Of a stretch of 20,723 nt of DNA, positions 3,600-17,464 are shown piece after piece. Each line of letters starts with the position of its first letter. Position 1 is the first letter of the stretch. The notes beneath the pieces were generated by a model, which made no database searches, had not been told where the DNA came from, and saw only the letters and a list, made by a program, of their open reading frames with translations. The position numbers and the translations under genes were made by a program. This stretch comes from a virus: the IMG/VR virus record IMGVR_UViG_3300001419_000053, positions 3,648 to 24,370 of that record; one strand, given 5' to 3'.

Positions 3600-4433
3600 A
3601 TGTCCACGACAGTCTCTGAATCATTTCGCGCAGAAATGGAATCAGGCATTAAAGTAGCATACCAGCAGATCGGCTCAAAGCTCCGCGGCGCCGTGCGCAT
3701 CAAATCGGGCGCCAAGGGTTCGACGGTAAGCTGGAATAAGATCGGCAAAGGGCAGGCGTCGCAGAAATCGCGTCACGGCGACGTGGTCCCCATGAACCCC
3801 ACGCACTCGAAGGTTACCGGTACCATGGCGGACTGGTATGCCGGCGATTATGTGGGCAAAATCGATGAAAAGAAAATCGATTTCGATGAAAAAGAAGCGA
3901 TCAGGATTACCGGATCGGGCGCCATCGGGCGCAAGACCGACAACCTGATCATAACCGCCATGGACGGCACGAGCAATACCGTTGCCGTCGGCGCCACGGG
4001 GCTTTCAAAGGCCAAGATCCTTTCCGCCTTTGAAACCCTGAATGGCAATGACGTCCCCGATGACGGCAACCGGTATGTTGCCGTCGGCGCCCATCAGTGG
4101 AATGAATGCATCAATATTGCCGAGTTCAAGTCGGCGGAATATGTCGGCCCCGGCGAGCTTCCCTGGCTTCGCGGCACGTCGGCAAAGCGGTGGCTCAATT
4201 TTATATGGTTTCTCCATACGGGCCTGCCGCTTGCCGCCGGCACACGCAAGGTCTTTTTCTGGCACAAGATGGCTGTCGGATACGGCGAATGTCAGGAGAT
4301 GTTTACCGACATATCGTGGGTGCCTCAAAAGGCGGAACATTTTGTCGACACGATGTTTTCGGGCTGTGCCGCTCTCATCGACGACGACGGCGTTGTTGAG
4401 GTATCCTGCGACGATGACGCGAGCATAACATAA
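3600..4433 (+). CDS. Major capsid protein
   Basis: 277 residues, shorter than T7 gp10A (345). It should form the icosahedral shell; an HK97-type fold is expected for this family. It resembles the podoviral capsid proteins with features such as AYQQIGSKLRGAVRIKSG (about residues 20-37) leading into a strand-rich N-arm (GSTVSWNKIG), a DVVPMNPTHSKV segment (about 61-72), a DYVGKIDEKKIDFDEKEAI element (about 83-101) and TDNLIITAMDG (about 113-123). The C-terminal third carries a glycine-rich receptor-like patch before an acidic end. Position directly after the scaffold and the very strong ribosome site both support a high-copy shell protein. A small probable decoration gene follows 19 bases after the stop. 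Confidence 0.9.
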   Translation: MSTTVSESFRAEMESGIKVAYQQIGSKLRGAVRIKSGAKGSTVSWNKIGKGQASQKSRHGDVVPMNPTHSKVTGTMADWYAGDYVGKIDEKKIDFDEKEAIRITGSGAIGRKTDNLIITAMDGTSNTVAVGATGLSKAKILSAFETLNGNDVPDDGNRYVAVGAHQWNECINIAEFKSAEYVGPGELPWLRGTSAKRWLNFIWFLHTGLPLAAGTRKVFFWHKMAVGYGECQEMFTDISWVPQKAEHFVDTMFSGCAALIDDDGVVEVSCDDDASIT

Positions 4434-4714: not shown

Positions 4715-4743
4715 CGCCGGCGGCACTGGCAGTGCCGTCGGCG
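4715..4743 (+). terminator. Strong GC-rich hairpin after the capsid unit, candidate terminator or processing site
   Basis: 13-bp stem with one G-U (arms 4715-4727 and 4731-4743) and a GGC loop; TTAACC precedes it, as for the hairpin at 3439-3465. It is followed by CATTAAAAGG rather than a T-run. Its place after the capsid and decoration genes is that of the T7 terminator that follows gene 10, so partial termination is plausible, but the missing T-run leaves RNA processing or 3'-end protection as alternatives. Confidence 0.55.
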
Positions 4744-4762: not shown

Positions 4763-6316
4763 ATGACAATCGCTTTTCTGGCGGTAACGCTCTGTATATT
4801 TCCTTTCATAAGATGGCAACGTGGTCATGAATCGGGCAACTGTCTGACGATCATAGTGGCCTCGGGCATGTGGGGTTTATATGCCTGGTATTTGATTGAT
4901 CATCCTCTTGCCCTGCCCATCGATCCCGTTTCTCTCGCTCTGTATGGATTCGCGGCATGGATCGTCCTGTCGCTGTCCTGGGGAAAAAGCTCGCAGGGCC
5001 TTTTTGATGCCCTGACCTGGCTGGGATGTCTGACCGTGTTTTTTGTTGCGCGGCAGGCGCCGGCAGAGACAGTCCTGCTGCTCTGTGTTGTGCCTGCCCC
5101 GGTCCTGTGTGCGCATACTCTCTGGCAGAGGATAAGAGGCGTTGTGCCCGCCGGAATAATAGGGAACACCAATCACAGCGCCGCCCTCTATCTCGTCTAT
5201 TTTTTCGCGGCGCTCTGGCTTGCCGGTCATGTGTCGCCCTGGTTTAATGTCCTGGCTTTGTTGTGCGCCCTGGGAATTGTGGCGTCCCGGTGCCGTGCCG
5301 CCACGGTCGCGCTCTTTGCCGGTCTCTTCGTCGTTTTTATTGACCGTCCTTTTTTTATAGCAGTCGGCATCGTCTGTGTTGCCGCACTGTTACTGTCGTC
5401 GTTTTTTATATTGAAACACAAAAACCGCCTGCATCGCTTTTATTCGGCGGAACGTATATCTTTTTATTATGTCGCCGGCAGTATGATCCTGCAGCGCCCC
5501 TTTTTCGGCTGGGGGTTGCGTATGTTTCGACGTGAATATCCTGTTCTGTGTCCCCATGTGGCGCATGTGGTCGGGCGCAACCCCGAACACTTTTCCGCGA
5601 CGCACCGGGTTCACAACGATCACCTCGAGGTAATGGTGGAAACCGGCATGGTGGGGTATGGTCTGTTTATTCTTATCTTTTATCAATCTCTCCTTTCTGC
5701 TCCCGCCCTGTTCCCGATTGTTGCAGCGTTTATGATTGATGCCTGCTTTTTCTTTCCCTTCAGAGAGACTCATACCGCCATTCCTTTCTGGGCAGTCCTG
5801 GGCGCATTGACGGCGGGGATCCCCGCCGATCCCGCCGCGGCGCATTACGCGCAAGCAGGCGTTTGCTCTCTGGCCGCTATCGCCGTCACGGGAGTGGCGT
5901 ATCGTAAACTGGCCGGTATCTACTGGTATTCCCGCGCTCGGAAGCTGCCGGTCGATAATAACCGGACCAGGTACTTCCTTGCCCGCGCCGTTCGAAACGA
6001 TCCAAACAATGCAAAATATCTCGATACGGCGGCGGTGGCCTGGGTATCCCAGGATATGCTGAGATCTCTTATCTATGCCGTCCGGAATATCGTCTGCTTT
6101 GACGGCGGCCGGGTGAAATGGGGACTCTACGACAACCTGGCCCGTGTTGTTCTCTCCACGGGACACCTTAAAATCGCGCGCTATCTGACGGATCAGGCGC
6201 TTCTGTTGAACTCCCGGTCCGATCGAAGCCGGGCGCTCAGCAAAACGCTTGTCGAACTGGAGGCATTACAAAAAAAAGCGAGAATGGAGGCGAAAACACA
6301 TGGCGTCAATCATTGA
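4763..6316 (+). CDS. O-antigen ligase/polymerase-like (Wzy_C family) membrane protein with C-terminal helical repeats
   Basis: 517 residues. About ten or more hydrophobic segments fill residues 2-375. Family motifs seen: GNTNHSAALYLVYF (about 134-147), SRCRAATVALFAG, PFFGWG at 246-251 followed by F...YP, and HRVHNDHLEVMVETGMVG with H284, N285 and E293, the periplasmic-loop signature of the WaaL/Wzy/PglL superfamily. Such enzymes move lipid-linked glycans onto lipid A core, onto growing polymer or onto protein. Residues about 385-517 are soluble and helical, resembling TPR repeats seen in some members. The ribosome site is weak (AAAAGG, about 11 bases off), and the end overlaps the tail tubular A start by 17 bases. 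It is out of place among virion genes; seroconversion or receptor masking is an inference. Which sub-activity it has cannot be told. Confidence 0.85.
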   Translation: MTIAFLAVTLCIFPFIRWQRGHESGNCLTIIVASGMWGLYAWYLIDHPLALPIDPVSLALYGFAAWIVLSLSWGKSSQGLFDALTWLGCLTVFFVARQAPAETVLLLCVVPAPVLCAHTLWQRIRGVVPAGIIGNTNHSAALYLVYFFAALWLAGHVSPWFNVLALLCALGIVASRCRAATVALFAGLFVVFIDRPFFIAVGIVCVAALLLSSFFILKHKNRLHRFYSAERISFYYVAGSMILQRPFFGWGLRMFRREYPVLCPHVAHVVGRNPEHFSATHRVHNDHLEVMVETGMVGYGLFILIFYQSLLSAPALFPIVAAFMIDACFFFPFRETHTAIPFWAVLGALTAGIPADPAAAHYAQAGVCSLAAIAVTGVAYRKLAGIYWYSRARKLPVDNNRTRYFLARAVRNDPNNAKYLDTAAVAWVSQDMLRSLIYAVRNIVCFDGGRVKWGLYDNLARVVLSTGHLKIARYLTDQALLLNSRSDRSRALSKTLVELEALQKKARMEAKTHGVNH

Positions 6317-6866
6317 TATTTGCAATCAGGCGCTGTATGACCTGGGCGACAGTTCGATCAGTTCACTGACGCAGGACGACCGGAAGGCCCGGCTGTGTAA
6401 TGGAAAGTATGGATTTGTCCGCGATGCCGTTTTGCGGTCCTATCCCTGGAATTGTGCCATAAAACGCGATGAGCTTGCACGGGAAGCCGACGCGCCTGAC
6501 TGGGAATATACCTATAAATACGCCCTCCCGGGCGACTGTCTGCGCGTCCTGCGCATGAAGGAAGAAGACGACAACGGCTATGCATGGAAGGTGGAAGGCC
6601 GCGCCGTCCTGACCGACGCGACAACCTGTTCTATTCGCTATATTTACCGGTGCACCGTCGTCAATAATTATGATGCCCTTCTCTGCAGCGCCCTCGCCGC
6701 GCGCCTGGCGGCAGAGATCGCCTATCCGCTGACGCAATCCAATACGTTGTTAAAGGCAATGTGGGATCTGTACCGCCTCAAGATCGCCGAGGCGCGAAGC
6801 GCCGACGCCCAGGAAGGCACGCCCGACACAGTGATGGAAGACACCTGGCTGGATGCCAGGGAGTGA
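6300..6866 (+). CDS. Tail tubular protein A, T7 gp11-like
   Basis: 188 residues, near T7 gp11 (196). It forms the adaptor ring between portal and nozzle. The N-terminus MASIIDICNQALYDLGD and the following ...RKARLCNGKYGFVRDAVLRSYPWNCAIKR (about residues 27-55) are characteristic, as is the C-terminal helical pair with ALAARLAAEIAYPLTQS (about 128-144). I chose ATG 6300 because GGAGG at 6286-6290 lies 9 bases upstream and the family begins at this residue; an in-frame ATG at 6249 would add a lysine/arginine-rich extension read from inside the ligase gene. It overlaps the ligase stop by 17 bases, suggesting coupling. The gp12-like gene starts 6 bases after its stop codon. Confidence 0.93.
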   Translation: MASIIDICNQALYDLGDSSISSLTQDDRKARLCNGKYGFVRDAVLRSYPWNCAIKRDELAREADAPDWEYTYKYALPGDCLRVLRMKEEDDNGYAWKVEGRAVLTDATTCSIRYIYRCTVVNNYDALLCSALAARLAAEIAYPLTQSNTLLKAMWDLYRLKIAEARSADAQEGTPDTVMEDTWLDARE

Positions 6867-6871
6867 GGAAG

Positions 6872-8869
6872 ATGGCAAAGGTATCCCCCATACTGACAAA
6901 TTTTACCGGAGGCGAGTGGTCGGAACGTCTCCAGGGACGTATTGATCTGGAAGGGTATTACAACGCATGTCGCACCCTGGAAAACATGATCGTCCATCCC
7001 CACGGCGGCGCCTCAAGGCGTTTTGGCACCTGTTTCGTGGCTGAGACCAAAGATTCATCAAAAACCGCGCGCCTGGTCCCCTTTATCTTTTCTACCGAAC
7101 AGGCATATATATTAGAACTGGGCGATCAGTACATGCGCGTCTTTAAAGACAACGGCCAGATCGTCACCGGCGGCGGGGCGGCCTATGAAATAGCGACATC
7201 CTATATTGAATCGCAACTATCGACCATAAAACATGCACAATCGGCTGACACGATGTATCTGGTCCATCCTTCCGTACCGACGCAGAAACTGACCAGGACT
7301 GCGCACACCACCTGGATCATGGATGATGTGGACTGGCAGGACGGCCCCTATGAAGCGGAGGTATCGGGAGTCAATCTTGATCCAGACGGCACAACGGGGA
7401 ACGTCACCATCGTGGCCGCCGCGTCGGTCTTCGCTGCTGCCGATGTGGGAAGGCTGGTCCGATGGCAGGCCGACGACGGTAACTGGTACTGGTTCAAGAT
7501 TACCGACTATGACTACGCCACACAGATCAAGGCCGACGTTAAGGGGTCCGATCTTCCCAACCATAACGCCAGTAATCCCTATCGCCTGGGGATCTGGTGC
7601 GGCGGATCTGGATACCCGTCGTCAGTCTCATTCTATGAACAGCGTCTGGTCCTGGCGGCATCGGATGAATATCCGCAAACGATATGGGGATCAAAATCAA
7701 ACGACGATACCGCATCCGGCATTTCCTATGAAGACTTCACCCCCGGCACCGACGACGACGACCCCTATGGCTATACCATTGCCGCCGATCAGGTCAATGT
7801 TGTTCGCTGGCTCAATGCGGTACGGTACCTCATGGTCGGCACCGTCGGCGGCGAGTGGATTATGTCGTCGGGCTCAGACGATGTCCCCATTACGCCTTCG
7901 GCCGTTAAAGTTCGCCGTGAGGCGACCTATGGATCCTACAATCTGCAGGGACTGGCCATCGGCAGGGCCATTCTGTTTCTGCAGCGCGCCGGCCGCAAGA
8001 TCCGCGAACTGGCCTATCGCTACGAATTGGACAATTACGTCGCACCCGACCTGACCCTCCTGGCGGAACACGTTACCGAAGGCGGCATTGTTGATTGGGC
8101 CTGGCAGTCTGAACCCGATTCCATACTGTGGTGTGTTCGTGCCGACGGCGTCCTGCTGGGCCTGACCTATGATCGCGATCAGGGTGTCGTTGCCTGGCAC
8201 CGGCACATCACCGACGGCGAAGTCGAATCCGTGGCAGTTATTCCCGCCTCGGATCATGATCAACTGTGGATGATCGTCAAGCGCACTATCGGCGGAGAGA
8301 CAAAACGATACGTCGAGTACATGAAACCCGATTTCGGCACCGCCGTGGAAGACGCCTTCTTTGTCGACTGCGGTCTTTCCTATGACGACACGGCTACGGA
8401 TACCTTCAGCGGTCTTGATCACCTTGAAGGGGAGACAGTATCAATCCTGGCCGACGGCGCCGTCTGTGCCGACACCGACGTCGTCAGCGGCGCGATAACC
8501 CTGTCCGATGCCGCGAGTGTCGTTCATGTCGGGCTTCCCTATACGTCCGTCCTGGAACCCATGCGCCTGGAAGCGGGATCCCAGGAGGGCACGGCCCAGG
8601 GTAAAATAAAGAGGATACATAAACTGATCGTCCGTTTTTACCGGACCATCGGCGCCCGCATCGGGACCGATTCGGAAAATATAGATGTTGTGCCCTTCCG
8701 AAAACCGTCGGATCTCATGGGATCGGGGCCGGCGCTGTTTACCGGCGACAAAGAGGTTGAATTTCCCGGCGGCTATTCGAAGGACTCTTTTATCAGAATT
8801 GAACAGACACAGCCCCTGCCGATGACGGTGCTGTCGATCATGCCGAGGATGAAGACCTATGACGGATAA
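6872..8869 (+). CDS. Tail tubular protein B (nozzle), T7 gp12-like
   Basis: 665 residues (T7 gp12 is 794). It forms the tapering lower tail tube below the gp11 ring and holds the fibres. The N-terminus PILTNFTGGEWSERLQGRID, then a YY...C.TLENMIVHPHGGASRRFG block (about residues 25-50), is the hallmark of this family. The rest is strand-rich with many aromatic residues and acidic turns, as expected for a beta-propeller/barrel tube; MQTIWGSK-like and YLMVGTVGGEWIM segments in the middle also recur in the family. ATG 6872 is chosen because GAGTGAGGAAG precedes it and the conserved N-terminus starts there; the frame extends 37 codons further upstream inside gp11 but with no family likeness. It overlaps the next gene by 11 bases. 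Confidence 0.93.
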   Translation: MAKVSPILTNFTGGEWSERLQGRIDLEGYYNACRTLENMIVHPHGGASRRFGTCFVAETKDSSKTARLVPFIFSTEQAYILELGDQYMRVFKDNGQIVTGGGAAYEIATSYIESQLSTIKHAQSADTMYLVHPSVPTQKLTRTAHTTWIMDDVDWQDGPYEAEVSGVNLDPDGTTGNVTIVAAASVFAAADVGRLVRWQADDGNWYWFKITDYDYATQIKADVKGSDLPNHNASNPYRLGIWCGGSGYPSSVSFYEQRLVLAASDEYPQTIWGSKSNDDTASGISYEDFTPGTDDDDPYGYTIAADQVNVVRWLNAVRYLMVGTVGGEWIMSSGSDDVPITPSAVKVRREATYGSYNLQGLAIGRAILFLQRAGRKIRELAYRYELDNYVAPDLTLLAEHVTEGGIVDWAWQSEPDSILWCVRADGVLLGLTYDRDQGVVAWHRHITDGEVESVAVIPASDHDQLWMIVKRTIGGETKRYVEYMKPDFGTAVEDAFFVDCGLSYDDTATDTFSGLDHLEGETVSILADGAVCADTDVVSGAITLSDAASVVHVGLPYTSVLEPMRLEAGSQEGTAQGKIKRIHKLIVRFYRTIGARIGTDSENIDVVPFRKPSDLMGSGPALFTGDKEVEFPGGYSKDSFIRIEQTQPLPMTVLSIMPRMKTYDG

Positions 8870-9317
8870 AATACGAAGCGAAACATTTCGCCCGGACCAT
8901 CTCCGGGCCATCCAGATAGACCCGGACAACCCTGATCCGACGGTGGAATCTCTCCTGGGCCGCCTCGACGCGCGTGCCGAACAGTACGCGAAAGCAGGCC
9001 CGGCCTGGACGATGTTTGATGGCTCCCGCGTCGTTGCCTGCGGCGGCGTAATCACCATTTATCCGGGATCTGGTGAGGCGTGGTTGTTGTTAGAGCGGGG
9101 TTTTTCCCGGCCGCTGTCACTGACGCGATATCTGTGCGAAGCACTTGACCTCTGTTTTGGACATTTTGCCTTTCACCGGATCCAGGCTACCGTCATGACG
9201 GACAATCGGCCCGCCCATCGCCTGATTCAACGCCTGGGATTTATTCCCGAGGGATCCATGCTCTACTATGGCGCCGGGAAGGAACATTTTATCAGATATG
9301 CGAGGTTCAATATATGA
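8859..9317 (+). CDS. GNAT-fold internal virion protein, T7 gp13-like
   Basis: 152 residues (T7 gp13 is 138). The middle strand pair WTMFDGSRVVACGGVITIYPG (about residues 50-70), a helix (RYLCEALDLCFG) and the end RIQATVMTDNRPAHRLIQRLGFIPEG are typical of GNAT acetyltransferase folds and of the gp13/DUF2833 phage proteins. The usual acetyl-CoA pyrophosphate loop (Q/RxxGxG/A) is not evident; GFSRPLSLTRYL occupies its place, so enzymatic activity is doubtful and a structural or assembly role as for gp13 is more likely. It overlaps the nozzle gene by 11 bases and shares ATGA with the next gene, so the three are probably translated as a coupled set. Confidence 0.85.
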   Translation: MTDKIRSETFRPDHLRAIQIDPDNPDPTVESLLGRLDARAEQYAKAGPAWTMFDGSRVVACGGVITIYPGSGEAWLLLERGFSRPLSLTRYLCEALDLCFGHFAFHRIQATVMTDNRPAHRLIQRLGFIPEGSMLYYGAGKEHFIRYARFNI

Positions 9318-9763
9318 GCGCTGCTGCCATAAGCCTGGGATTGTTGGCCACATCGACGGCATTGTCTGCCTACAGTACCTATGAACGGGCGAAAAGCGAA
9401 AAAGAGATTGCAGAATATAACGCCTCGGTACGTGAAGAAGACGCCGCCGCCGCAGAGACGCAGGCACAGGAAGAAGCCGATCTGCATAGAGACCGGGTTC
9501 GCCGTCTCATGGCGACGCAACGCGCCGGTTATGCGAAGGCCGGCGTCACCAGACAGGGATCACCCCTCGCGGTCCTGTCCGATACCCTGTCGGAAGGCGA
9601 AAAGGACGCCATGGCCATACTGGCCCAGGGCATGACCACGGCCAGCCGGTACAGATCCGACGCTTATGGATACCGAATGACCGGATCAGCCGCATGGAAA
9701 GGCGGCCAACTGAAAACCGTCAGCACATTACTGACGGGAACGTCACTGATGACGAGGGATTGA
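9314..9763 (+). CDS. Internal virion (core) protein, T7 gp14-like
   Basis: 149 residues. A small, alanine-rich protein with a hydrophobic N-terminal helix (AAISLGLLATSTALSAYSTY, residues about 4-23), then a long charged coiled-coil-like helix (about 24-75) and a glycine-containing C-terminus with QRAGYAKAGVTRQGSPLAVL (about 69-88). That last segment (RAGYAKAGV...GSP..VL) is typical of gp14-like proteins in many podoviruses. In T7, gp14 is ejected and lodges in the host outer membrane as part of the trans-envelope conduit; the same is inferred here. Its ATG overlaps the previous TGA, and the next gene starts one base after its stop. Confidence 0.85.
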   Translation: MSAAAISLGLLATSTALSAYSTYERAKSEKEIAEYNASVREEDAAAAETQAQEEADLHRDRVRRLMATQRAGYAKAGVTRQGSPLAVLSDTLSEGEKDAMAILAQGMTTASRYRSDAYGYRMTGSAAWKGGQLKTVSTLLTGTSLMTRD

Positions 9764-9764
9764 T

Positions 9765-11471
9765 ATGATCAATATCCAGCGATATTATCAACAACAAACC
9801 GGTCCCGCTGTCGGCGGCAGGACCGTGCTCGATCCCCGAGCCCGATCGGCAGAATTTGCGGGGATAGACCGGCTTGCCGGCGATGCCGCGGATCTCGCCA
9901 CGCGATACGAAAAAATTCAACAGGAACGCGACACCGTCGACGTCCTGAGCGCCTATGACGCCTTTGCAGATGAAGAACGATCGTTCCTGCAGGAGCAGCT
10001 GAATCTCAAAGGGAAAAATGCCCGCACCGCTATTGCCGCCGGCGCCGAATGGTACGGAAAGACGTCGGGGCGGTATGCATCGGAAATCCTCACCAATGAC
10101 GGCCAACGGCAGGAATTCAACCGGTTGATCAGTCGCCGCCGGGAATCGGGTCTCAATACCCTGGCGCGGCATGCCGCACAGGAACACCGCGCCGACATCG
10201 ATGACACGTTGCGGGGCGCTCTGGCAACGGCAGAGGAAGACATCCGAATGCATCCCGGCCGATCCGACGATGCCGTCAGTACCTTTCGAACCATGCTGTC
10301 CACACTCCGATCAGGTCAGGACACGACTGCCGACGCCATCGCCGCGGAACGTCAGCTCCGGACGGCGGCTGTACAGGCCATGATGCATGACCAGCCCGCC
10401 GCGGCCCTCGAGTACATCGAGAAGCACAAAGAGGCCCTGGGCGGCGTATATGGCCAGCTTAAAAATCAGATTACAACAATACGGGATCGCGGTAAGGAGA
10501 CGGATGCCTATTATATTTTGAAAGATCAATACGGCGACGATTACGACAGCGCCCTCGACACGGTCCGGAAACCGGGATTCATGAAGCGCCACGGCCTGAC
10601 GCTGGACAATGCCGACGCCGTCGCTTTAACCTTGAAGGCGGAACGCAAAGAACAGGCGGATCGGAAAGATGCCGCCGACAAGGAGCAGCGAGAAAAAGAA
10701 ACCGATATTATCTTTAAGGCGATTCGGCAGAAAGACTACAAGACTGCGATCGACGCCCTCGAGAGCGCCGAGGCAATCGACGAAATGATTAAATACGACA
10801 TTGAGCAGGCGATCACCGAGGCGCAGCCCGAACCGGCCGACGTGATCTGGGGCCGGATATTGGAAGGTATCAGGAAAAAAGATATCCGCCATAAATCGCA
10901 GTTGCTCCCCGCGCTGGCCCGGGGAATCACCCCCGAGCAGTACAACAAGGCCGTTTCACTGATCAAGACGGTATCCGAACAGTCTGACCCCGGCTATTTC
11001 CGCGCCCTTGATTACCTCAAGAGTCAGATCATGCCGAAGAAAGCCTGGGATGTGGGCGAAAGCGACGAAGAACACGACCGATATTACCGTGCCGTCGTCG
11101 CCCTTGATGAAATAGCCGCCGCCGCCGAGAAGGCCGGGAAACCCATTACCGGAAACGCCTTTATCGCGGCAGCCAGGGACCTGGCGCCGTCCTATATGAA
11201 TACACAGGCAGAACTAATAAGAAAAAAGGTGTCCAAGTTCTCCACAGGCACCTCCATCGAATTGCCGCCCGCCCTGATCAAACTCTCCGGAGGCGATGCC
11301 GAATCATTATATCGGGGTGTTAAGACCGTCGACGAGGCATACCGGAAACTGGCCGTCAAACTCCTGGACGATGCCCGCCCTCAGCGCCTGGTCAATAAGG
11401 ATACCATCGCCGCCGCCATCGCCCGGATAAAGGAGTATGAGGCGGCCCGTCAATCGGGAGGTGCGCCATAA
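9765..11471 (+). CDS. Internal virion protein, T7 gp15 position
   Basis: 568 residues (T7 gp15 is 747). Almost entirely helical and charged, rich in Ala, Asp, Glu, Lys and Arg, with no enzymatic motif that I recognise. The N-terminus (INIQRYYQQQTGP) and the LATRYEKIQQERDTVDVLSAY segment resemble core proteins encoded between gp14-like and gp16-like genes in other podoviruses. A coiled-coil-like stretch lies at about residues 285-315 (KAERKEQADRKDAADKEQRE). By position it should be an ejected core protein that bridges the periplasm together with the giant protein that follows. The assignment is by context and composition. It ends in a TAATG overlap with the next gene. Confidence 0.75.
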   Translation: MINIQRYYQQQTGPAVGGRTVLDPRARSAEFAGIDRLAGDAADLATRYEKIQQERDTVDVLSAYDAFADEERSFLQEQLNLKGKNARTAIAAGAEWYGKTSGRYASEILTNDGQRQEFNRLISRRRESGLNTLARHAAQEHRADIDDTLRGALATAEEDIRMHPGRSDDAVSTFRTMLSTLRSGQDTTADAIAAERQLRTAAVQAMMHDQPAAALEYIEKHKEALGGVYGQLKNQITTIRDRGKETDAYYILKDQYGDDYDSALDTVRKPGFMKRHGLTLDNADAVALTLKAERKEQADRKDAADKEQREKETDIIFKAIRQKDYKTAIDALESAEAIDEMIKYDIEQAITEAQPEPADVIWGRILEGIRKKDIRHKSQLLPALARGITPEQYNKAVSLIKTVSEQSDPGYFRALDYLKSQIMPKKAWDVGESDEEHDRYYRAVVALDEIAAAAEKAGKPITGNAFIAAARDLAPSYMNTQAELIRKKVSKFSTGTSIELPPALIKLSGGDAESLYRGVKTVDEAYRKLAVKLLDDARPQRLVNKDTIAAAIARIKEYEAARQSGGAP

Positions 11472-14400
11472 TGTCCCCCATCGATCTCTCCGATCTCCCC
11501 CCGGCCATCGATCTCTCCGATCTCCCCCCGGCCATCGATCTCTCCGATTTCCCTCGCCGCCCCTTTCTCGCCGAAGAGGAGCCCGTCCATTTTGACCTGG
11601 AAGGCACACTCGACGAGATCTCCCGCATTTCCCCGTCCGTCTCCGACGACCCCAGGGGAGACTTCGGCCGCATGGTCTGGACCGTCGCCCGTCCTTTTGT
11701 CTCTACCGGCTACAATGCCGCCTCGGCGCTCAACCGGGGCATGGGTGCCCTGTCGGAGCACCTGGATATAATACAGGAATATATAAGCGATGTTGCCCAT
11801 ACTGAAAAAGTCGAAGTCTTCGAGAAGGCCGCCCGGCAATATGAAGAAAATGCCGAATACTGGAAGAAGCGCGTCGATACCGTCGGATCGTCATTTATGG
11901 AAGAACTGCTCGGCGAGGCCCTGGGCGGCGCCGTGCCGGGGATCACTGAATTCATGCTCAATGTGCCCTATGCCGCCGCCCTGGGCGCGGCAGAGGCCCA
12001 CAAGGAAGGACAAGGCGAGATACTCGGCGCACTTACCGAGGCCGCGAAACGGGGCGTGCTGGGTATGGTCTTTCGCGCCATGCATCCCTTAAAACAATAT
12101 CTTCGGGCGCCGGTCATGGGGACCGTCTTCGGCGCACAGACAGCCCTGGAAGGCGGCGATATGCGTGAAACTGCAAAAGGTTTCGGTACCGGCGCACTCT
12201 ATTCCCTGTCCAGTCCCGGCGGGAAAATGGGCCTTAATGACATCGGGGCCGAGATGCGCCGTGCGGCAGCGCTGTCCCAGGCCAATGAATCGATCCAGCA
12301 TCTCAGCATTATGAAGACTATTTCGGATTATGAGCGTTCCCATGCCGAACGCCGCAGGCAGGAAGCGGACATTCGCCGTCAGGAACGCAACGCCGAGGCC
12401 GATAAATTCATGGAAGCGCAGGAAAAGGAGAACGCCGATTTTATGGACTATGTCCAGGCGGATATGCTTAGTATGGTATCCGGCGGCAGCGCAGGCCAGC
12501 AGCGTGATTTCAACGAAGGCGGCGGATGGGAAGTAGGCCGGGTCGCGTCGGGATATCCTCAGTGGTTTCGCGATATTTGCAAAAAACACAAGACCGGGAG
12601 AGACGAATTCTTGCGTATCGTCTCAAAATATGAGAATGAGCAACCATTAACCGATCGGCAGCAGCGGATATATGACGCCTTTTCCTGGGCCGCCATTGAT
12701 GAATCGCGCAAACCGCAGTATGCCGACATCGAAGAGGTACTGAAAGGGATTGACGATGACCGAGAATTTAGAAAGAGAGAAGATCAAGAAGCGCTTAAAG
12801 ACGAAATTATTAACGAGATTAAGGCGGAAGAGAGCCTTACGGAGGAAGAGTTCCGAGAAGCCCTCGACGACTGGGACCGCATAGTTTCCGGAGAAAGCAC
12901 ACCGTCACAGACACCCCGCCGCCGGGTACCCCCGGACATGAAAGATACCGGCATGTCCCAGGTAAATATCGAAGGCGGCGCTGAACCGATCCTGGAGCAG
13001 GAACCCGCCCCGCCCCGACAGCGGCCCGATCGACAGTTGGATCTGCTCGTTCGGATACTGGACCAGGAAGTCCCCGGCATGGACAGGGAAGTTGACAATA
13101 GAGGCCCGAATGAGCAAAATTATATATATGAAACGAAACTCGACAAACAATCGGAGCTCCCGTTCGACGAGGTATCCCATGCCAGAAGAACGGATCTTGC
13201 CACGGCGGCAAAAACGGCCGAGATCCAGCCGGAAATCGTATCCCGTGCCGCCGGAACGTATCGGACCCGAACCGTAACCATTCGAACCCCCGCCGACGCC
13301 GCCCACCTGTCCGAGCTCAATATCGGCGACAAGGCCCAGGAACACTTTCTTATCATCATGATGGATGCCGAACAAAAGGTTATCGGCGTCCATCAATACA
13401 GCAAGGGAACATCGCACAGTGCCCCCGCTGAAATGGGCGTTATTCTGGGACACGCGCTAACCGTGCCCGACGTCAAAAGTGTACTCCTGGCGCATAATCA
13501 CCCCTCAGGCAATCCTCAATTATCCAAGGAAGACCAAACTGTTTTTAATATGTTGCGGCACGCTGCAACAGACACGGGAGTCGATGTTCTGGATATGATC
13601 GCCGTCGTCGGGAAGGTCGGCGACAGTCCCGGCGAATATTCGTCATGCATGGAAGGATCGACAGGCCGTGAAATACCGCAGTATGCCGGACAGCCGGAGT
13701 CGGTCATCCCCGTGGTGGAACGTATCGTCGCACGCCCCGGCGAACATCTCAGGGCAGTATCAGGGTCCGCCGATATGATGATCTATGGAAAGGAACGCTA
13801 CCCTGACGGCGCCCTGCTGCTGCTCAATCCGAAAAATGAAATCATCGGCGCCATCCGGATTCCCGACTATGGGCAGCTACAGGGGCGCACCACACGGGAT
13901 ATTGTAACGGAGATCCATAAGACCAACGCCATGGGAATGATCGTATACGATCCGACGCGGAAACTGTCTTCCGATGAAATGCGGAATCTGCAACGCTTTG
14001 CCACGGCGACCTCTATGGATTTATATGACATAATCGACGGTTCCGGATCCGCCGCGGACCGCAACAGTATGCCGCCCCGGCCTTATAGGACACCCGCGCC
14101 CGACGAGTATTCGTACGCCTTTCAACCGGCCAAAGATTTTAAACAGAGAACGCCGGAAGAAGAAACAGACAATGACCGTATCTACCGCCGGAGCGATATC
14201 GTCAAGCTGCTGCGCGACAAACTTGATATTCCGATCCGGACGGGCCGTTTTCGCGACAGGGCACTGGGGATCTTCAAGGTTCGTGACGAGGTGGTCCGCA
14301 CGCGCCAGGCCAACGACATTGAAGTCATCGCCCATGAGATCGGCCACGCCCTCAACAAGTTTCTATGGGGTCTTAAAAAAAGGAACTTAAATACGGAGCC

Positions 14401-17400
14401 CTTTACCTATTATGCCGATGAACTGGGGCCTATTGCGACGCAGCCCAAGGCCGGCCAGCCGGTACTCCAGGAGGGGTTTGCTGAATTTGTGCGGTTATAT
14501 GTCACCGATAATAACCGTGCCCTGCAGGTGGCGCCCCGCTTCCATCGTTATTTTGAAGAGACGCTCCGCGATAAGGCCCCCGAAGTCAAAGAAATCTTTC
14601 TTGAAGCCCGCCGGAACTTCGAAGGGTGGTTGAAGCAGCCGCCGCTGCACCGTATCCTGGGACAGATGTCCGTCGACCAGAATAACCGCCGCGCCACAAC
14701 CCTCGACGATCTCTATACCGCCGGCATTGACGACCTGTTTCCCCTCCGTGATGTGGTCAACACGATGACCAAGGGAAAAGCCGCCGCCGCCGCCGATGAT
14801 CCCTATGTTCTGGCGCGCCTGCTTCGTGGATGGACGGGCAAGGCCCAGGTCTTTCTGCGACATCGCCCCTTTACATTCGGAACCTACGAAGATGCCGGAA
14901 AATCGCTTCATGAGATCCTGCAGCCCGTCAAAACGCGCCTTGATGAATTCCGGGCCTATGTCGTCGCCAAGCGGACGCTGGAGTTAAAGGGGCGCGATAT
15001 CGAAACGGGGATACTGCCAGCCGACGCCCGCTGGGCCGTCGATGCCTATGAATCCGACTTCGCGCCCGTATTTGCCGAGTTGAAAGAATACCAGGATCTC
15101 ACGCTGCAGTACCTCCGCGACAGCGGCGTCATCGGGGAAAAGGCATACACCAAGATCAAAAAGCTGAATGACGACTATGTCCCCCTCTATCGCGTCATGG
15201 AAGAGAGCGCCCGGGAATATGGCATCGGTACCGGGATGGAGTCCCGGGACCCCGTGAAACGCATCAAGGGATCCGCGAGAGATATTCAGGATCCGCTGGA
15301 ATCGATCGTCAAAAACACATACCTTTACATCAATCTGGCCGAAAAGAACGCCGTCGGCCGTGCCCTGGTGGAATTGGCTGAGAAGACCGGCGGCCAGGGG
15401 AAATTCATAGAACGGATACCACAGCCCCTGCAGAAGATTGCCATCAGGGAACCGGAGCTTATGGGTATCCTGACGCGATACGGCAAATGGACGGAAACGA
15501 GCCGGTACCGGGAAACACAAAAAAAGGTCGGCGAAAAAATCACCGCCGTCGACGCCGAAGGTGAAGGACTGAAACCGATCGACAAGGTCGAAGAACGCGC
15601 CCGCGAAGCACTCCAGGCCCGAGGGTTTTCCCAGGGCGAGACGGAACAGATACTGAACCGCCTCAAAGGCGCCAAGACGCCGGAAGCGAAAAGCAAGATC
15701 ATTGAACGCACCATCGAAAAGATCGTCGTCAAGGAAACGGTCCAGGAATTCGGCCTGGAACTGCCCGGCGATACCGTCGAAATCTTTCGTGCTTCGGCTT
15801 TTGTGCCCAAGGATAACGTCATTTCCGTCTGGCGTGACGGGAAACGGGAGCTTTACGAAGTGCATCCCGACGTCGCCCGCACCTTTCAGGCCCTGGACCG
15901 TGAAGATCTCAACCTTTTTGTAAAGCTTATGGCAATACCGGCGAAGATGCTCCGTGCCGGCGCCGTCTTGACCCCTGAATTTATGATCCGCAATCCGCTT
16001 CGTGATCAATTTTCAGCATTTGTATATTCAAAATACGGCTTCATTCCCGGCGTGGACCTTGCCCGCGGGATGTTTCACCTGGTCCGCCGTGACGATATGT
16101 ATAAAAACTGGATGAAAGCAGGCGGCGTCCATTCCATGCTGACATCGATGGACCGGACCTACATGCAGGACAATCTGGGCGATGTTCTGCAGAAATATCC
16201 CGTCAAAAACCTGGTAAAAAACCCCATCGAGTTGCTGCGTGTCCTGACGGAACTGACCGAAGCGGGAACTCGCCTCGGTGAATTTTCGCGCGGATATCCG
16301 AAAGAAGGCGGCGGCAAGGCGGGAGCGCAAGCCGCGGCATTTTCATCTCGCGAAGTGACTCTCGATTTTGCCCGCATTGGCGCCAAGACTAAGGCCGTTA
16401 ATGCCCTTATAGCCTTCTGGAACGCGCAGATACAGGGCGGTGATCGCATGGTTCGGGCCTTTAAAGACAACCCGCTGCAGGCGTCATGGAAGGCCGTCGC
16501 GTCCATAACAGTACCGTCTATAGCCCTGGCCATTGCCAATCACGACGACCCCCGCTGGAAACATATTCCCCAGTGGGAAAAAGACCTCTTCTGGATCGTC
16601 ATGACCGACGACCATGTCTGGCGCATCCCCAAGCCCTTCGGACTGGGGATCCTGTTTGGATCCGTGCCCGAGCGGGTCGTCGAGTATATCCTTGATCGGG
16701 ATCCCGATGCATTTCACGGTCTGCTGGAATCCCTGGGCCGCGGCATGTCGCCGGGGATGATCCCTACGGGCGCCCTGCCTTATATCGAAAACTGGGCGAA
16801 CAAGAGCCTTTTCTTTGATCGCGGCATCGTGCCCCCCGGCCGTGAAGACGTGCTCCCCGAATACCAGTACCAGCCCTACACGACAGAGACGGCCAAACTC
16901 CTGGGCCGCTTTTTCGGGAAGCTCCCCGATCTGCCCGACATCGATGTCCTGCCCACAGCGCCGGCAAAGGTAGAGAACCTGATCCGCGGCTGGACCGGCG
17001 GCCTGGGCATGCACGTCCTCAAGATCCTCGATGCCGGTCTCGATGCCGCCGGCATGACCGCAGAGGGCCCGACGGAACCGACGAAGACCCTCTCCGATAT
17101 CCCCTTCATTAAAGCCTTCGCCGTGCGGTATCCGTCGGCAAGCGCCGAACCTGTTGCCCGCTTTTACGAGGACTATGACGCATACCGAAAGACACAAAAC
17201 ACAATCAAAACCCTGGCGGAGAAAGAGAATAACCCCGCCGCCGCGGCAAAACTGCTGTCAAAGCACAAAAAACGCCTGGCCGTCAATCTCGATATGACCT
17301 ACCAGTCGCTTCGGAATATGCACCGGGTAGTCGATGCCATTTATTCAAACCCCGACATGACGGGAGATGAAAAGCGCGAACTGATCGATATTACGTATAT

Positions 17401-17464
17401 GGGCATGATCTCCGTTGCCGAACGGGGAGAAGGTCTTATCAAGGCCATGAAGGAGCGGGATTGA
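11471..17464 (+). CDS. Giant polyvalent internal virion protein with JAMM and HExxH peptidase-like domains and LPD38-like C-terminus
   Basis: 1997 residues (T7 gp16 is 1318). In order: a 9-residue IDLSDLPPA tandem repeat (residues 4-30); hydrophobic/amphipathic helices (about 140-250); a coiled coil rich in Arg, Gln and Glu (about 275-325); a JAB/RadC-like JAMM domain (about 600-705) with E654, H675-N-H677-PSG and S685..D688; a second, similar but motif-less unit (about 745-850); a zinc peptidase site HEIGH (955-959) with GFAEF (E1005); a long helical middle; and a region starting near RNPLRDQFSAFVYSKYGF (about 1505) typical of large polyvalent protein-associated domain 38. Such proteins are thought to be injected with the DNA. 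I do not see the transglycosylase signature of T7 gp16. TAATG overlap with the preceding gene. Confidence 0.9.
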   Translation: MSPIDLSDLPPAIDLSDLPPAIDLSDFPRRPFLAEEEPVHFDLEGTLDEISRISPSVSDDPRGDFGRMVWTVARPFVSTGYNAASALNRGMGALSEHLDIIQEYISDVAHTEKVEVFEKAARQYEENAEYWKKRVDTVGSSFMEELLGEALGGAVPGITEFMLNVPYAAALGAAEAHKEGQGEILGALTEAAKRGVLGMVFRAMHPLKQYLRAPVMGTVFGAQTALEGGDMRETAKGFGTGALYSLSSPGGKMGLNDIGAEMRRAAALSQANESIQHLSIMKTISDYERSHAERRRQEADIRRQERNAEADKFMEAQEKENADFMDYVQADMLSMVSGGSAGQQRDFNEGGGWEVGRVASGYPQWFRDICKKHKTGRDEFLRIVSKYENEQPLTDRQQRIYDAFSWAAIDESRKPQYADIEEVLKGIDDDREFRKREDQEALKDEIINEIKAEESLTEEEFREALDDWDRIVSGESTPSQTPRRRVPPDMKDTGMSQVNIEGGAEPILEQEPAPPRQRPDRQLDLLVRILDQEVPGMDREVDNRGPNEQNYIYETKLDKQSELPFDEVSHARRTDLATAAKTAEIQPEIVSRAAGTYRTRTVTIRTPADAAHLSELNIGDKAQEHFLIIMMDAEQKVIGVHQYSKGTSHSAPAEMGVILGHALTVPDVKSVLLAHNHPSGNPQLSKEDQTVFNMLRHAATDTGVDVLDMIAVVGKVGDSPGEYSSCMEGSTGREIPQYAGQPESVIPVVERIVARPGEHLRAVSGSADMMIYGKERYPDGALLLLNPKNEIIGAIRIPDYGQLQGRTTRDIVTEIHKTNAMGMIVYDPTRKLSSDEMRNLQRFATATSMDLYDIIDGSGSAADRNSMPPRPYRTPAPDEYSYAFQPAKDFKQRTPEEETDNDRIYRRSDIVKLLRDKLDIPIRTGRFRDRALGIFKVRDEVVRTRQANDIEVIAHEIGHALNKFLWGLKKRNLNTEPFTYYADELGPIATQPKAGQPVLQEGFAEFVRLYVTDNNRALQVAPRFHRYFEETLRDKAPEVKEIFLEARRNFEGWLKQPPLHRILGQMSVDQNNRRATTLDDLYTAGIDDLFPLRDVVNTMTKGKAAAAADDPYVLARLLRGWTGKAQVFLRHRPFTFGTYEDAGKSLHEILQPVKTRLDEFRAYVVAKRTLELKGRDIETGILPADARWAVDAYESDFAPVFAELKEYQDLTLQYLRDSGVIGEKAYTKIKKLNDDYVPLYRVMEESAREYGIGTGMESRDPVKRIKGSARDIQDPLESIVKNTYLYINLAEKNAVGRALVELAEKTGGQGKFIERIPQPLQKIAIREPELMGILTRYGKWTETSRYRETQKKVGEKITAVDAEGEGLKPIDKVEERAREALQARGFSQGETEQILNRLKGAKTPEAKSKIIERTIEKIVVKETVQEFGLELPGDTVEIFRASAFVPKDNVISVWRDGKRELYEVHPDVARTFQALDREDLNLFVKLMAIPAKMLRAGAVLTPEFMIRNPLRDQFSAFVYSKYGFIPGVDLARGMFHLVRRDDMYKNWMKAGGVHSMLTSMDRTYMQDNLGDVLQKYPVKNLVKNPIELLRVLTELTEAGTRLGEFSRGYPKEGGGKAGAQAAAFSSREVTLDFARIGAKTKAVNALIAFWNAQIQGGDRMVRAFKDNPLQASWKAVASITVPSIALAIANHDDPRWKHIPQWEKDLFWIVMTDDHVWRIPKPFGLGILFGSVPERVVEYILDRDPDAFHGLLESLGRGMSPGMIPTGALPYIENWANKSLFFDRGIVPPGREDVLPEYQYQPYTTETAKLLGRFFGKLPDLPDIDVLPTAPAKVENLIRGWTGGLGMHVLKILDAGLDAAGMTAEGPTEPTKTLSDIPFIKAFAVRYPSASAEPVARFYEDYDAYRKTQNTIKTLAEKENNPAAAAKLLSKHKKRLAVNLDMTYQSLRNMHRVVDAIYSNPDMTGDEKRELIDITYMGMISVAERGEGLIKAMKERD
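11480..11552 (+). repeat. 27-bp tandem repeat, 2.7 copies
   Basis: Units 11480-11506 and 11507-11533 are identical and a third partial copy follows to about 11552 (last base variant gives Phe). Each codes IDLSDLPPA. The repeat lies four codons into the giant virion protein gene. Confidence 0.93.

Follow-up and report, generated by a model that had tools for sequence, protein, structure and literature searches.

A WaaL/Wzy_C-superfamily membrane enzyme encoded between the capsid and tail genes of T7-like podoviruses

That phages can modify the bacterial surface with Wzy-type enzymes is established, both for the seroconversion polymerase Wzy-beta of phage D3 (PMC4815439) and for capsule in the case of Acinetobacter prophages (PMC13228068). 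The D3 gene follows those for tail fibre and O-acetylase, lies on the minus strand with the inhibitor gene iap nearby, and has a product that acts in lysogens. VG_p25 of VarioGold (Wzy-type by annotation, PMC9658991) and wzy1Ph/wzy2Ph of Acinetobacter (PMC13228068) are likewise phage-carried Wzy-type surface enzymes; they are described as prophage or moron genes, VG_p25 opposes the late genes, and none has been reported inside a head-tail operon. The non-phage counterparts with which comparison is most instructive are WaaL (PF04932; E. coli WaaL, 7tpg) and the PglL-type protein O-oligosaccharyltransferases, which have their superfamily and essential residues in common with the enzyme described here (PMC3643930). 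The phages with the most comparable gene order are the HTVC010P-type podoviruses (Pelagibacter phages, MEP301, YeP4), which have homologous portal, capsid, gp11 and gp12 genes and in which the interval from capsid to gp11 is empty or contains only small ORFs. Searches of open-access papers yielded no report of a Wzy-type enzyme inside a T7-like virion operon.

A gene of this kind, here termed wzy, is present in a stretch of 20,723 nucleotides, the window, which is bases 3648-24370 of the 24,370-base viral record IMGVR_UViG_3300001419_000053 (parent contig L002). Its surroundings, in window coordinates, are as follows.

628-2253, + strand: portal (head-tail connector), PF12236 at 432.7 bits
2532-3383, + strand: scaffold or capsid assembly-like protein, phrog_3742 at 3.8e-35 and phrog_458 at 4.3e-20
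3600-4433, + strand: major capsid protein, PF19821 (Phage_capsid_2) at 213 bits
4450-4698, + strand: decoration-like ORF of 82 aa, phrog_18004 at 1.1e-12 (a family of unknown function)
4715-4743, + strand: GC-rich hairpin with a 13-bp stem and without a T-run, 3′ of the capsid and decoration genes
4763-6316, + strand: wzy, Wzy_C/WaaL-family membrane protein of 517 aa, PF04932 at 1.2e-11 and a fold match to WaaL 7tpg
5252-5671, + strand: Wzy_C domain of the wzy product, residues 164-303, by Pfam HMM
5294-5296, + strand: codon for R178 of wzy, in the alignment column of E. coli WaaL R215
5453-5455, + strand: codon for R231 of wzy, in the column of E. coli WaaL R288 and phage D3 Wzy-beta R270
5612-5614, + strand: codon for H284 of wzy, in the column of E. 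coli WaaL H338 and phage D3 Wzy-beta H300
5942-6298, + strand: C-terminal TPR domain of the wzy product, residues about 394-512, by Foldseek of the full-length model
6300-6316, + strand: overlap of 17 bases between the end of wzy and the start of gp11, from the sequence
6300-6866, + strand: gp11, tail tubular A-like, phrog_394 at 3.8e-57
6863-8869, + strand: gp12, tail tubular B-like, phrog_376 at 3.7e-223

The portal, scaffold, capsid, gp11 and gp12 genes are thus in the order of the late operon of T7-like (HTVC010P-type) podoviruses, and the closest isolate portals, at 41-44% identity, are those of HTVC010P-type Pelagibacter phages. The placing of wzy between the capsid/decoration genes and gp11, proposed from the sequence-only reading, is borne out by the profile matches of the neighbours (PF19821, phrog_18004, phrog_394). 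After gp12 there is a GNAT acetyltransferase gene (8859-9317) with a weak match to phrog_308, an internal virion protein family, and in HTVC203P an acetyltransferase is annotated at the equivalent place. Further 3′, a 1,997-aa ORF (11471-17464), probably an internal virion protein, starts with near-identical short repeats (IDLSDLPPA).

Family, fold and active-site residues of the wzy product

The wzy ORF is intact, with its TGA stop at 6314-6316. The Pfam Wzy_C model (PF04932) gives 45.1 bits, above its cut-off of 31.7, a result with which a search of the parent record agrees, and it matches all eight aligned wzy members. Both of the motifs to which attention had been drawn are present, PFFGWG at residues 246-251 and HNxHLxxxxETG, as HNDHLEVMVETG, at residues 284-295, and there are about 12-13 hydrophobic segments. 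An AlphaFold2 model of the membrane part (residues 1-392), built from only 10 sequences, has a pLDDT of 77 and a pTM of 0.80. When it was compared by Foldseek with solved structures, the sole significant match was WaaL (chain 7tpg_B; E 3.2e-4, probability 1.00, TM 0.56/0.55, of which 0.56 is by query), the second-best match having a probability of 0.21. The earlier description of a complete WaaL/Wzy-type protein therefore holds. An unrelated transporter was considered and rejected, since the fold search of the membrane part returned no significant one (best transporter match E 0.065, probability 0.21).

Residue columns lead to the same family. R178 aligns with R215 of E. coli WaaL, in a column that is R or K in all aligned members, while R231 and H284 occupy invariant columns, the former with E. 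coli WaaL R288 and D3 Wzy-beta R270, and the latter with E. coli WaaL H338 and D3 Wzy-beta H300. The two D3 residues are essential by mutagenesis (PMC4815439), and the residue list in PMC3643930 gives, from cited work, R215, R288 and H338 of E. coli WaaL as important for function. Fold, Wzy_C domain and equivalents of these three residues are thus common to the wzy product and WaaL; unlike E. coli WaaL, to which it is 13% identical in the alignment, it is phage-encoded within a virion operon and has an added TPR domain. D3 Wzy-beta, also a phage-encoded Wzy_C protein, is shorter (386 aa), is without a TPR domain and has no detectable full-length profile similarity to it.

Direct profile comparison gave only a short motif match to E. 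coli WaaL (probability 21) and no match to D3 Wzy-beta, so the link to WaaL is carried by the HMM, the fold and the residue columns. The model for exosortase-associated O-glycosylation ligases (TIGR03097) scores 29.7 bits, below its cut-off of 188.1, and the IctB model, which we take to be a misnamed Wzy_C relative, matched one wzy member only. Nothing significant was found by Foldseek of the full-length model against a viral structure library. With HMM match, polytopic fold and catalytic Arg, Arg and His all present, the wzy product belongs to the Wzy_C/WaaL superfamily.

The C-terminal domain, which the sequence-only reading had missed, is a different matter. The top Foldseek matches of the full-length model are TPR proteins (TM by target up to 0.84, E-values 0.005-0.1), which swamp that search and make it uninformative on the membrane part; TPRs were also returned, weakly, by a profile search of PDB sequences. 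Such a domain is more usual in ligases and protein oligosaccharyltransferases than in O-antigen polymerases, and LPS may consequently not be the target of the enzyme. One alternative that this raises is a PglL-like protein O-oligosaccharyltransferase that glycosylates host pilin or another periplasmic protein and so changes a pilus receptor. Besides the TPR domain, it is favoured by P246, G249 and G251 being spaced as are P313, G316 and G318 of PglL (matched by eye to the residue list in PMC3643930), and by the location of the nearest bacterial homologue (L018, Desulfobacterales), behind three genes which, judged by eye, resemble pilO, pilP and a secretin gene. However, that homologue is only 22-23% identical, no acceptor gene was recognised in the phage, and PglL_A (PF15864) has no match in eight members at E up to 10, a search in which HMMER filters may drop very weak matches. 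The HMM and structure comparisons envisaged at the outset have in this way returned Wzy_C and WaaL but not PglL_A, and we regard the PglL-like alternative as unlikely, though with some substance. The TPR domain and the secretin-adjacent homologue lend some likelihood to a protein acceptor. Specificity is not readable from simple sequence comparison in the WaaL/PglL superfamily (PMC3643930); the Wzy_C domain is compatible with a ligase or a polymerase role, and ligase, polymerase and protein oligosaccharyltransferase appear indistinguishable at this level.

Overlap with gp11 and the hairpin 3′ of the capsid genes

The last 17 bases of wzy are also the first of gp11, whose ATG is at 6300 and whose GGAGG ribosome-binding site lies inside the wzy 3′ end. 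The overlap is also 17 bases in L011, and it is 4 bases in L005, L016 and L026-L029, so that one exists wherever both genes are complete. On this arrangement wzy reads as translationally coupled to gp11. [The gp11 proteins of L005, L016 and L026-L029 are extended at the N terminus by about 90 residues, which are absent from gp11 of the window.] Codon use in wzy correlates with that of the rest of the operon at r 0.775, within the range of its neighbours (0.69-0.92), and so carries no mark of recent capture.

The 64-nt interval between the decoration gene and wzy, whose hairpin likewise did not figure in the sequence-only reading, folds at −28.3 kcal/mol, with a z of −2.9 against dinucleotide shuffles. 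All podoviral loci examined, whether they carry wzy or not, have a strong hairpin 3′ of the capsid or decoration gene, though its sequence differs from one to another; against dinucleotide shuffles z lies between −2.4 and −6.4 in five of six loci tested, L016 being weaker at −1.4. In relatives without wzy the hairpin is directly 5′ of gp11. As it keeps its place 3′ of the capsid or decoration gene whether or not wzy is there, wzy sits on the gp11 side of the hairpin. The position of the hairpin recalls that of the T7 terminator after gene 10, and it may end transcription, in which case wzy would depend on a promoter that escaped detection.

Occurrence of wzy in unrelated head modules

Eight further podoviral contigs (L005, L011, L016, L026-L030) have wzy between the decoration gene and gp11; in all eight a counterpart of the decoration-like ORF adjoins the capsid gene. 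They were found by alignment-based scans of IMG/VR, and the alignment was needed: with single sequences as queries, neither the viral contigs nor the GenBank phages gave a relative, and wzy is without a match among GenBank phage records. The common order is portal-scaffold-capsid-decoration-wzy-gp11-gp12, with L027 lacking the portal end and L030 cut within wzy. Since wzy of L026, L027 and L028 is 99-100% identical, the podoviral set including the window amounts to about six distinct lineages. Identity to the window copy is 30-33% for wzy and 55-59% for gp11. The window copy is the most distant in wzy, capsid and gp11 alike, and L011 is next in wzy and gp11, though its capsid gene sets it apart less clearly. 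Recurrence of the same wzy junctions in these contigs led to rejection of an assembly chimera, and the expectation that related contigs would have the gene at the same locus was confirmed. For L026-L028 against L029, dN/dS of wzy is 0.087-0.089, compared with 0.083-0.087 for the capsid gene and about 0.10 for gp11, values which place wzy, like the capsid gene, under strong purifying selection. The view that wzy is woven into the operon instead of being loosely inserted is well served by the overlap, the shared slot in all wzy-carrying podoviral relatives and this selection.

Other relatives lack the gene. In MEP301, HTVC203P, YeP4 and a human faecal contig, gp11 comes next after the capsid gene, in some cases with small ORFs between them, and wzy is absent. 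Among 80 contigs that were the best of a longer capsid-profile list, among whose listed matches the known wzy contigs are absent, 79 have gp11 downstream and wzy was found by tblastn in none of the 79, a figure for a sample and not a frequency. The gap between capsid and gp11 in them is mostly about 300-400 bases, but in 10 it is occupied by 1.6-4.2 kb of other genes, among them genes for collar-like proteins and what looks, by eye, like a toxin-antitoxin pair. In L006 the slot (8652-9940) has a putative phrog_1962 glycosyltransferase, and in L008 (8269-10001) two methyltransferases. The statement that T7-like phages have no such gene at this place is therefore right as to the usual absence of wzy, but the slot itself is an accessory hotspot. 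[The L006 and L008 slots each also encode a related unknown protein of about 200 aa, and the slot in L108, L123-L125, L127 and L129 holds repeated collar-like proteins of the 'GWLVCDGSAISRTEYADLF' type, possibly host-range cassettes.]

Unrelated inserts at the same place in other phages, and the rarity of wzy in the capsid-profile sample, are what would be expected if wzy were cargo without benefit to the phage, captured accidentally and kept by chance, or unexpressed. This is contradicted by purifying selection (dN/dS about 0.09), and the conserved position, coupled overlap and retention of catalytic residues at 30% identity also argue against it; we consider it highly improbable.

Occurrence of wzy extends to a second type of head module. 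In L012 and L013 (L013 also in L014 and L015) it directly precedes a capsid gene of the Mu gpT type, with a lambda-type portal gene alongside, and in L013-L015 it is directly 3′ of a decoration gene. A more distant wzy is in the structural region of L017 (a 101-kb contig), between capsid and head-closure genes with other genes intervening. [The late region of L012 also has, at 11396-13431, a methyltransferase that resembles rhamnosyl O-methyltransferases, and a weak GT2 match; these are perhaps further surface modifiers.] In a tree the six podoviral and two gpT-type copies are united, with 96/95 support, to the exclusion of the bacterial rows, in a group that gives the window copy no firm position, and L017 groups, with weaker support, near the bacterial homologue L018. 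As the phage-specific group spans unrelated head modules, wzy has moved between unrelated phages.

The adjacency of wzy to decoration-type genes in both modules would be explained if the enzyme were tied to the virion itself, for instance by adding a glycan to the decoration protein. However, the decoration proteins of the T7-like and gpT-type modules belong to different families and wzy of L017 is not beside decoration genes. Moreover, capsid assembly is cytoplasmic, while enzymes of the WaaL fold work on the periplasmic side of the membrane. There is very little chance that this explanation is correct.

Counterparts in bacteria are few. A first scan of a genome collection was empty and a second gave one Desulfobacterales homologue. 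At E 1e-30, a cut-off that would miss more distant host ligases, one of 389 genomes of the class of G058 and one of 395 of its phylum are reached; the match is to the same genome both times, and is in a phage fragment. By this measure wzy appears rare in bacterial chromosomes.

Lifestyle, proposed function and significance

The sequence-only reading had set the locus apart from the genes for lysogenic conversion, and this contrast is not secured. A serine recombinase is encoded at 346-966 of L002, upstream of the window and ahead of the terminase genes; the Mu-like G013, a gpT-type relative, has a tyrosine integrase; and a 6.8-kb contig (L052, G058:C66) of the Desulfobacterales genome G058 has capsid, decoration and frameshifted wzy genes beside bacterial genes. 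The G058 capsid gene is 56% identical to that of the window, and a related portal is on another contig. L052, which may be chimeric, gives a hint that the host is one of the Desulfobacterota and that there may be prophage remnants. [A gene reading as a glycyl-radical enzyme is joined to its phage fragment.] Among other genomes, G289 has capsid, gp11, gp12 and portal homologues and no wzy, while in G415 and G168 (Desulfobacterota) a related capsid gene was the only counterpart of a window phage protein, and the stretches read contained no wzy.

These features, together with the action of the D3 and Acinetobacter Wzy proteins from prophages (PMC4815439, PMC13228068), are the case for wzy being a lysogenic-conversion gene, the phage or its relatives persisting as prophages and the enzyme excluding superinfecting phages as in D3. 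Against this, wzy overlaps gp11 and follows the capsid genes, a position at which a prophage is normally silent. The D3 and VarioGold genes lie beyond the head operon and are encoded on the other strand. The parent contig, which is incomplete, has no tyrosine integrase, and seven of the eight contigs searched, most of them fragments, gave none. The serine recombinase best matches DNA invertases (phrog_125) and might invert a tail-fibre segment or serve integration, and the Desulfobacterales evidence is weakened by the potential chimerism and the frameshift. Lysogenic conversion seems a rather improbable explanation, but one to be kept in mind.

The best reading, which we hold with moderate confidence, is that the wzy product is made late, resides in the inner membrane and, acting as a glycan ligase or polymerase on lipid-linked glycans of the host, alters the surface of the infected cell. 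Its active site (R178, R231, H284) would, by analogy with the family, face the periplasm, and the TPR domain would be at the C-terminal end of this inner-membrane enzyme. As the contig gave no GT2 match and no other sign of partner glycan genes, the enzyme must use glycans made by the host; the family suggests undecaprenyl-linked glycans as donor. These would either be ligated to an acceptor, which might be lipid A-core, pilin or another protein, or be joined as repeat units in a new way. Co-transcription with the tail genes behind the hairpin, and translation coupled to that of gp11, would have the enzyme made late, as operon position suggests, and probably below the level of capsid. The changed surface could then lower re-adsorption of progeny or of competing phages; freeing of progeny from cell debris by a phage-induced surface change has been proposed for other genes (PMC12373910).

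A broader proposal, which we advance tentatively and with less confidence, is that a phage-specific clade of WaaL-fold ligases in the virion operons of unrelated tailed phages provides a late lytic function in exit or exclusion, the surface being rebuilt alongside virion assembly and independently of lysogeny. Phage enzymes of the superfamily are familiar from prophages, where they alter the serotype or capsule of the lysogen; here the gene is a member of a head-tail operon, is under strong purifying selection in T7-like phages and recurs in an unrelated head module. The cargo slot behind the post-capsid hairpin is a good place to seek other late-acting phage genes. If wzy is late-acting, lytic growth would itself include a change of the cell surface, with a bearing on the escape of progeny from receptor-bearing debris, on competition between co-infecting phages and on the diversification of surface glycans in uncultured bacteria.
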